Source: Aquisalimonas sp. 2447 (lineage in GTDB: Bacteria > Pseudomonadota > Gammaproteobacteria > Nitrococcales > Aquisalimonadaceae). Taken from it: a DNA stretch of 64,000 bases. A program made the translations under genes and the position numbers. The first letter of the stretch is position 1. Each line of letters opens with the position of its first letter. Positions 2,875 to 27,329 of the stretch are shown here, piece after piece. The stretch spans positions 3,688,501 to 3,752,500 of the forward strand of contig NZ_CP050695.1 of NCBI RefSeq assembly GCF_012044895.1, read 5' to 3'. Under the pieces are notes generated by a model that worked only from the letters and a program-made list of their open reading frames with translations, did no database searches and was not told where the DNA came from.

Positions 2875-2907
2875 CGTTACTCCCCCTTCATGGCTGCCGC
2901 GTGTATT

Positions 2908-2934
2908 TTAGCAGTCACTTCCTTGGAGTGCTAA
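2908..2934. promoter_or_regulatory. CIRCE-like operator (HrcA site) upstream of rpoH
   Basis: The sequence reads TTAGCAGTC-N9-GAGTGCTAA. The CIRCE consensus is TTAGCACTC-N9-GAGTGCTAA, so 17 of 18 arm positions match and the 9-base spacer is exact. CIRCE is the binding site of HrcA, the repressor of groESL and dnaK in many bacteria. Here it lies 34 bp upstream of the rpoH start, where a repressor could block transcription. HrcA itself is not in the window. The match is seen directly; the regulation is inferred. Confidence 0.75.
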
Positions 2935-3085
2935 ACCCGACAGAAGTTCCAGCGCCGGCACGATTGCAGCGACGATCTGCCGGCGCAACAGACTTACGGT
3001 TATGAGGTTGGCTCCATCCGTTTTCAAGGCTCACATGGCACGGCTTGGCGGCCGTACGCTCATCGCCCAGACCAACGCCAAGGGA

Positions 3086-25209: not shown

Positions 25210-25237
25210 CTTGAAACCCGCCCGAGCGCCCACATCT
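25210..25237 (+). promoter_or_regulatory. sigma-32 (RpoH) type promoter for hsp20
   Basis: CTTGAAA (25210-25216), a 13-base spacer, then CCACATCT (25230-25237). The E. coli sigma-32 consensus is CTTGAAA-N11-14-CCCCATNT, so the -35 is perfect and the -10 has one mismatch. It lies about 48 bp upstream of the hsp20 start, pointing at a chaperone gene, and rpoH is in the same window. Confidence 0.8.
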
Positions 25238-25284
25238 AAGGCAGCAGAGGTAAGTGTTTCGACAGACAAATCAGGAGGTTGACC

Positions 25285-25728
25285 ATGAACATCCGTCGCT
25301 ATGAACCCTGGAGCGTGCTGAATCAGCTCAGCAACGAAATGAACTCCCTGTTCGCCAACAGCGGCCAGCAGCTTGGTGATCCGAGCACCATGGCCACCAG
25401 TGACTGGGTACCGGCAGTGGACATCCAGGAAGAGCAGGACCGCTACCTGATCAAGGCGGACGTCCCCGGTGTGAAACCGGATGACATCGACGTGCAGATG
25501 GAGAACGGCATACTCACCATCAAGGGTGAGCGTAGCGCCGAAGATGTCCGCGAGGACAACGGCTACCGCCGGGTCGAGCGCATCCGGGGCGCATTCCATC
25601 GCCGCTTCACCCTGCCCGACACCGCCGATGCCGAGAACATCACCGCCACCAGTCGGGACGGTGTGCTGGAGGTGGTGATTCCGAAACAGGACAAGGTGCA
25701 GCCACGGCGCATCACGGTGAAGGGGTAA
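25285..25728 (+). CDS. Hsp20/IbpA-type small heat-shock protein
   Basis: 147 aa ATP-independent holdase that binds unfolding proteins. The alpha-crystallin domain runs from [30 protein letters not shown] to [10 protein letters not shown], with the signature [20 protein letters not shown] and the conserved A/G-x-L-like motif GVLEVVIP. The N-terminal [20 protein letters not shown] is typical of class A proteins. ATG 25285 has a perfect AGGAGG 6 bases upstream. It is the first gene of a heat-shock cluster behind a sigma-32-like promoter. Confidence 0.95.
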
Positions 25729-25738
25729 TGCGACACGG

Positions 25739-25767
25739 CGTACGCCGCGGGCTCCCTGCGGCGTACG
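25739..25767. repeat. hairpin between hsp20 and the DnaJ-like gene
   Basis: Perfect 10-bp arms CGTACGCCGC (25739-25748) and GCGGCGTACG (25758-25767) flank a 9-base loop, 11 bp after the hsp20 stop. It has no T-run, so it may be an attenuator or an RNA-stability element separating a high-output small heat-shock gene from downstream genes. Confidence 0.6.
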
Positions 25768-25828
25768 CGGTAACGCACCTGGAACAATGAACCGGCACGT
25801 AACGACGGCTGCGAGGTGATGCGCGCGT

Positions 25829-26809
25829 ATGGAATACAAGGATTACTACAAGACGCTGGGCGTTGACCGCAACGCCGGCCAGGACGAGATCAAGAAGGCG
25901 TACCGGCGTCTTGCGCGCAAGTATCACCCGGATGTCAGCAAGGAAAAGGACGCCGAAGCGCGGTTCAAGGAAGTCAGCGAGGCCTACGAGGTGCTGGGTG
26001 ACCCGGAAAAGCGGGCCACTTATGACAAGCTCGGCAGCAGCTGGCACCAGGGCCAGGACTTCCGGCCACCGCCCGGCTGGGAATACCGCACTGGTCGCGG
26101 CGGTGCCGATGCGGACTCGGTGTTCAGCGATTTCTTCGAGTCCATCTTCGGCGGCGGCGACCCGTTCGGGGCGGGCGATCCCTTCGGTGGTGGCGGCCGT
26201 GCCCGGGGATTCCATGCCCGTGGCGGGCCAGGGGGACGCAGCCAGGGGTTTCGTACCCGCGGCGAGGACCAGCACGCCACCATCACCATCTCGCTGGAGG
26301 ATGCCTACCACGGCGCCGCCCGGACCCTGAACCTGCAGACGCACAAGGAGGACGGCACCGTGGAGCCACGACAGGTGCGGGTGAAGATCCCGCCGGGGGT
26401 GACCCAGGGCAAGCAGATCCGGCTCGCCGGCCAGGGCCCGCCCGGCATGGGCGGCGGCCCACGGGGTGATCTGTACCTGGAGGTCAACATCGCCCCGCAT
26501 CGGCAGTACGAACTGCGGGGCAGGAACATTCACCTGCAGTTGCCCATCACGCCCTGGGAAGCGGCCCTGGGCGCCACGGTGAAGGTGCCGACGCTGGGCG
26601 GATGGATTGACATGAAGATCCCTCCCGGGTCGCAGAACGGTCAGCAGCTGCGGCTCAAGGGCCGCGGCCTGCCCGGGAAGTCACCGGGGGATCAGCATGT
26701 GGAGTTGAACATCGTGACACCGAAGGCGGACACCGAAGGCGCCCGGGAGCTCTATGAACGCATGAGCCGGGAGATGCCCATGAATCCGCGCGAGAATCTG
26801 ACCGTCTGA
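25829..26809 (+). CDS. cbpA: CbpA-like DnaJ-family co-chaperone
   Basis: 326 aa. The J domain is complete with HPD ([15 protein letters not shown]) and can stimulate DnaK ATPase. A Gly/Phe-rich linker follows ([17 protein letters not shown]). The cysteine-rich zinc region of DnaJ is absent and the protein goes directly to the two C-terminal substrate-binding domains ([41 protein letters not shown]), as in CbpA. It lies between two hsp20 genes, so it probably hands clients of the small heat-shock proteins to DnaK. Confidence 0.93.
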
Positions 26810-26822
26810 GGCAGGTGAGGCC

Positions 26823-27329
26823 ATGAGGACATTCGAAGAACTGAGGCAGGGACTGGAACACGCCTGGGATCAGGTCACCGAGGGTTGGCGTGACCTGCGG
26901 GAGCGCGCCGGCGCGGCGCTGACCCGGTTCTATCCACTGCGCCGGGAGGGCGAGGTGCAAACCCGCGAAGAAGCGCATGCCCGCAGGGGCGCGGCCTGGG
27001 GCCTGATGGCCGCCGAGGTGCTGGAGGACGACCAGGCGGTGGAGGTCCGCCTGGAGGCACCCGGCATGCAGGCGGATGACTTCGACCTCTCCGTTCACGA
27101 GCAGACGCTCATCATCCGGGGTGAGAAGCGCGTGAACCGGCAGATCGACAACGGCCGCTTCCATCTCATGGAGCGTGCCTACGGCGCCTTCCAGCGCAAC
27201 GTGCCGCTGCCTTCGCCGGTGGACGACAGCCACGCGGAGGCCAGCTATCACGACGGCGTGCTGGTGGTGAGGCTGCCGCGCACGGAGAATACACGGCGGC
27301 GGCGAATCGCCGTCAGGAGCGGGCAATGA
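26823..27329 (+). CDS. second Hsp20-family protein with N-terminal extension
   Basis: 168 aa. The first 60 residues (FEELRQGLEHAWDQVTEGWRDLRERAG) form a predicted amphipathic helical extension, not seen in the first hsp20. The alpha-crystallin domain then reads VEVRLEAPGMQADDFDLSVHEQTLIIRGEKRVNR, RFHLMERAYGAFQRNVPLP and GVLVVRLPRTE. It starts 13 bp after the cbpA-like gene and overlaps degQ by 4 bp (ATGA-type overlap), so it is part of the chaperone-protease operon. Confidence 0.88.
   Translation: MRTFEELRQGLEHAWDQVTEGWRDLRERAGAALTRFYPLRREGEVQTREEAHARRGAAWGLMAAEVLEDDQAVEVRLEAPGMQADDFDLSVHEQTLIIRGEKRVNRQIDNGRFHLMERAYGAFQRNVPLPSPVDDSHAEASYHDGVLVVRLPRTENTRRRRIAVRSGQ

Follow-up and report, generated by a model that had tools for sequence, protein, structure and literature searches.

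The textbook model of the heat-shock response in Gammaproteobacteria comes from E. coli, and it is a model without HrcA. There, rpoH, the gene for sigma-32, is served by the sigma-E-dependent promoter P3 as well as by sigma-70 promoters, on which other repressors and activators act. For the HrcA of Bacillus, release from the operator upon titration of GroE by misfolded protein is established. Curated HrcA regulons may list rpoH in proteobacteria too, and the 2003 survey by Permina and Gelfand, which reportedly deals with the same regulator and class of site, may already include it. The closest described case is the CIRCE predicted in front of rpoH in Geobacter sulfurreducens (Rodionov et al., 2004, Table 8; PMC545781); that study builds on the work of Permina and Gelfand (2003) on HrcA and CIRCE in beta-, gamma-, and epsilon-proteobacteria. 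The study of Rodionov et al. was the only relevant work on CIRCE or HrcA together with rpoH in the literature that we searched.

The operator and the predicted promoter elements upstream of rpoH

The window, meaning the whole 64-kb stretch of DNA that was analysed, carries in front of rpoH the CIRCE-like operator that the original prediction had placed there, at 2908-2934 exactly as claimed (Table 1). Its forward-strand letters are TTAGCAGTC-ACTTCCTTG-GAGTGCTAA, a single mismatch away from the consensus used here, TTAGCACTC-N9-GAGTGCTAA; read toward rpoH the site becomes TTAGCACTC-CAAGGAAGT-GACTGCTAA, the sole mismatch being a G-to-C change at a conserved position of the rpoH-proximal arm. Between the operator and the rpoH start codon, the ATG at 2874, lie 33 bp, which places the site in the 5′ or promoter region of a heat-shock gene. 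No other match with up to three mismatches occurs in the window, and the pattern was never found in 100 dinucleotide shuffles of it. The 3.97-Mb genome contains just one further CIRCE, a perfect site at groESL, and a control with the pattern written backward gave no match in the same genome. Judged by its sequence, 2908-2934 is a genuine CIRCE, that is, an HrcA site, at which the repressor would be expected to bind and act.

Table 1. Coordinates of the operator, the predicted promoter elements and the heat-shock genes in the window
Feature	Position	Strand	Remarks
rpoH, sigma-32, 289 aa	2005..2874	-	TIGR02392, 415 bits, cut-off 323
Shine-Dalgarno-like GGGGGAG of rpoH	2880..2886	-	from sequence
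Candidate sigma-70-like -10, TAAAAT	2905..2910	-	first three bases shared with the end of CIRCE
CIRCE operator	2908..2934	.	17/18 arm bases, exact 9-bp spacer
Predicted sigma-E-type -10 of rpoH, TCCAA	2923..2927	-	16 bp from -35; family alignment and class profile
Weak candidate sigma-70-like -35, TTAGCA	2929..2934	-	18 bp from TAAAAT; class profile
Predicted sigma-E-type -35 of rpoH, GGAACTT	2944..2950	-	family alignment and class profile
Sigma-32-like promoter, CTTGAAA-N13-CCCACAT	25210..25236	+	before hsp20
hsp20 / DnaJ-type (CbpA-like) co-chaperone / hsp20 cluster	25285..27329	+	PF00011, PF00226+PF01556, PF00011

The original prediction overlooked that the site overlies a sigma-E-type promoter, the sigma-E and sigma-70 elements discussed here being consensus matches only. 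Upstream of rpoH the window fits the sigma-E promoter shape GGAACTT-~16 bp-TCNNA with GGAACTT-N16-TCCAA, the left CIRCE arm contributing its final TC and the CIRCE spacer the remainder of TCCAA; rpoE is also present in the genome (TIGR02939, 325 bits, above cut-off). The same register recurs in an operator-anchored alignment of 89 sites from the class, oriented toward rpoH. A sigma-E -35 whose first base lies 15-17 bp ahead of CIRCE is present in 72 of the 89. The spacer begins T-A/C-A and, with the arm's two final bases, completes TCTAA, TCTCA, or TCCAA exactly 16 bp from GGAACTT, the final A of TCNNA being found in 71/89. Eight further sites have the -35 starting 31-43 bp before CIRCE, where the transcription start would fall at the operator, and nine offer no good sigma-E match. 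GAACTT in at least five of six bases sits at the fixed offset in 57/89 rpoH sites, versus 0.65% from shuffled upstream sequence, and at the matched offset of 20 CIRCEs in front of groES (12) or hrcA (8) it was found in none.

A second set of elements borders the other end of the operator. Immediately after CIRCE, [A/T][A/C]T follows in 71/89 class sites and in all 14 sites of the family, where it completes TAAAAT or TAATAT with the TAA of the arm, and the last position of this candidate -10 is a T in 84/89 and 14/14, respectively; neither the trailing [A/T][A/C]T nor the last-position T was seen after any of the 20 groES and hrcA CIRCEs. In addition, the left arm reads TTGGCA, an A-to-G change, in 35% of the class sites, as against 2% for the mirror-image change on the right side. 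A symmetric repressor alone would not account for this asymmetry of the arms, and a -35/-10 pair would.

The genes next upstream of rpoH are ftsX and ftsE. Between ftsX and rpoH, 94 bp before CIRCE, lies a sigma-32-like box (CTTGAAA-N14-CCTCAT, 3002-3028, minus strand) through which rpoH might have been thought to regulate itself; because the same pattern is absent in all 13 relatives (0/13), we take it as a chance match and reject autoregulation by this route. On the other side of the gene, at 1861-1956, a long hairpin is formed by two inverted GTGGGAGCGACGTCAGTCGCGA units. This unit has about 80 copies in the genome at up to two mismatches, many of them arranged as inverted pairs 40-60 bp apart, and by sequence the repeats are a REP/REPIN-like family.

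Repressor, predicted targets, and distribution of the site

The repressor gene that the original prediction presupposes is present in full length, as profile searches of the genome recovered hrcA with TIGR00331 (333 bits, cut-off 197) and also with PF01628, followed by grpE and then dnaK. A perfect CIRCE stands 55 bp before groES, and a 4-kb stretch around hrcA-grpE contains none at up to five mismatches. As to the question raised in the original prediction, whether rpoH, groES, and dnaK share the site, rpoH and groESL have it and hrcA-grpE-dnaK does not. Since CIRCE is found only at groESL and rpoH, these are, by the presence of the site, the direct HrcA targets, and since hrcA-grpE-dnaK lacks it, HrcA would reach dnaK only via sigma-32. 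Sigma-32-like boxes are indeed found before grpE (CTTGAAT-N13-CCCCAT) and dnaK (CTTGAAA-N13-CCTAAT), and the sigma-32-like promoter announced at 25210 exists as a sequence, ahead of the Hsp20/DnaJ-type/Hsp20 cluster. CIRCE also occurs at hrcA in other genera of the family and in sister genera, and not at hrcA in the window's genome; sister groups thus differ in which genes are direct HrcA targets, and HrcA autoregulation seems, from these sequences, to have been lost in the window's genus. A ClpB-like ORF in another family of the order is preceded, at 35-41 bp, by a perfect CIRCE (locus L225, G014:C11:276900-278000); the likeness is read from the start of the ORF, and the gene is a possible further HrcA target.

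The rpoH operator is present in 14 of 14 genomes of the family, representing four genera, at a nearly constant distance; in the alignment the arms are conserved and the spacers vary. The mismatched arm GACTGCTAA is common to all five genomes of the window's genus and to three of four in another genus, and all groES CIRCEs found in family genomes have perfect arms. The rpoH site would therefore look like an operator that is maintained in a slightly weakened form, presumably with a somewhat different affinity for HrcA.

Across Gammaproteobacteria, 276 genomes were drawn evenly, with rpoH recovered in 260 and hrcA in 206, and the upstream regions of the best-scoring 109 of the 260 rpoH loci were analysed, the window's genome being excluded. 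CIRCE at up to three mismatches precedes rpoH in 90 of the 95 genomes with hrcA (89 scripted, plus L139, G122), as against two of the 14 without it, both of these being weak three-mismatch matches; with related genomes treated as independent, Fisher's test on 89/95 versus 2/14 gives P = 5e-10. No CIRCE arose in 10,900 mononucleotide-shuffled upstream regions, and E. coli, run as a control in the hrcA search, gave no match. The CIRCE-positive rpoH loci span at least 48 families by the labels of the rpoH search. A single contig scan, which gave 80 named loci, served for breadth and not for rates. Among named genomes, Woeseiaceae, Haliea, Alcanivorax, Pseudoalteromonas, Dyella, Thiodiazotropha, Pandoraea, and Trinickia all have representatives that bear the site; the Pseudomonas and enterobacterial loci had no CIRCE. 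The concern that the site might be conserved only in close relatives is thereby answered, and rpoH, which the original prediction presented as an unusual HrcA-CIRCE target, is on sequence grounds a regular one in the class, the G. sulfurreducens case having moreover been predicted earlier in PMC545781. Because the same arrangement recurs across Gammaproteobacteria that carry hrcA, it reflects a conserved connection between two stress circuits, as opposed to a peculiarity of one genome.

The link is not universal. The order's four other families have no CIRCE in any rpoH upstream region checked, 17 of them by direct reading and the rest by coordinates among the matches listed, and hrcA is present in both sister-family genomes included in the class search. 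Together with the five of 95 class genomes that have hrcA and no CIRCE at rpoH, these lineages indicate that the link is dispensable in some of them. Eight sister rpoH promoters that lack CIRCE still have GGAACTT...TCNNA (N16/17); the left CIRCE arm is matched at 7/9 positions in two of the eight and at 4-6/9 in the other six, and the right arm at 1-5/9, which is suggestive of a decaying CIRCE in the former two. A recent gain by the clade of the window was considered and rejected, as the class sample has CIRCE nearly everywhere that hrcA is present; its disappearance from the four sister families is the better fit.

Proposed circuit and alternative readings

We consider it probable, at about 85%, that 2908-2934 is a functional HrcA operator that represses rpoH, lying over a sigma-E-type promoter core and a candidate sigma-70-type -10. 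Most likely, HrcA would keep polymerase off the rpoH promoter for as long as GroE is not titrated and would in this way gate sigma-E-driven transcription. At normal temperature, GroE would keep HrcA active, and HrcA seated on the operator, inside which the sigma-E -10 and the probable start site would fall, would exclude polymerase. Upon heat or misfolding, GroE titrated by misfolded protein would leave HrcA inactive and released from the operator, a step that we assume here by analogy with Bacillus HrcA; sigma-E and/or housekeeping polymerase, if available, could then transcribe rpoH, and sigma-32 would turn on grpE, dnaK, and the hsp20 cluster (25210-27329) in what would amount to a feedback arrangement. 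For the window's genus, this route through sigma-32 would be the only one from HrcA to the DnaK operon.

How much of this depends on sigma-E? HrcA could bind a real operator and yet control a different promoter, the sigma-70-type TTAGCA-N18-TAAAAT, with GGAACTT a minor or unused sigma-E site. The last T of the -10, so regular at rpoH and absent from the groES and hrcA CIRCEs, speaks for such a promoter, as does the one-sided TTGGCA of the left arm. However, GGAACTT at its fixed place is equally strongly conserved, the spacer shows selection for TCNNA (with its A in 71/89), and the sister families keep GGAACTT-N16/17-TCNNA where CIRCE is missing, so that we regard a purely sigma-70-type promoter as unlikely, if still a serious competitor; both types of rpoH promoter may be used. 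That the repeat is a remnant, or a palindrome arisen by chance, with no regulatory effect, as its one arm mismatch and the four sister families that do without it might suggest, is highly improbable, given that shuffling predicts no such site by chance, that all 14 family genomes keep the arms while their spacers have turned over, that the mismatch itself is retained throughout the window's genus, and that the presence of CIRCE tracks hrcA.

Considering the inverted-repeat nature of CIRCE, its place near the 5′ end, and the RNA thermosensor that enteric rpoH carries, the element could also act mainly as an RNA structure, a hairpin or thermometer in the 5′-UTR, and not as a DNA operator. The predicted starts would, however, put most of CIRCE outside the mRNA, and its presence follows hrcA, which encodes a DNA-binding repressor. 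A thermometer in the rpoH leader found no support either, the leader folding no better than its shuffles (z -0.09) and matching no Rfam thermometer. We hold a mainly RNA-based action to be very doubtful indeed.

Extending the repressed, sigma-E-type promoter to the class as a whole, we lean, with somewhat better than even odds, toward a fused rpoH promoter in which the 27-bp operator itself supplies the sigma-E -10 and part of a sigma-70 promoter, HrcA gating the envelope-stress or housekeeping input (sigma-E/sigma-70 AND NOT HrcA). Such an arrangement would be ancestral, lost together with hrcA, for example toward E. coli, and lost independently in sister families that kept hrcA. If it is true, most members of the class that bear HrcA put the sigma-32 gene under a chaperone-sensing repressor on a sigma-E promoter, and a strain deleted for hrcA would be predicted to express more rpoH and, through it, more dnaK, including in genomes whose dnaK lacks a CIRCE. 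The sister families with hrcA and without the rpoH site would be natural controls.

Comparison with known systems

In G. sulfurreducens, as here, the same repressor is predicted to act on the same target gene; that organism belongs to another phylum and class, its CIRCE is perfect and lies 51 bp before the rpoH start, and CIRCE is also found there at hrcA-grpE-dnaK-dnaJ, as given in the accessible part of PMC545781, in which no overlap with a sigma-E promoter at rpoH is described. Nor was a description of such an overlap between CIRCE and a sigma-E promoter at rpoH found anywhere in the literature searched, most subscription papers lying outside that search. Closer at hand, the groESL CIRCE of the same genome and order shares with the rpoH site the 27-bp operator and the repressor, but there a sigma-70 promoter of the TTGACT-N17-TATCAT type ends at the operator, with neither GGAACTT nor TAAAAT. 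The promoter arrangement itself has a counterpart in the rpoH region of E. coli, where, as predicted here, a sigma-E promoter stands alongside sigma-70 promoters.
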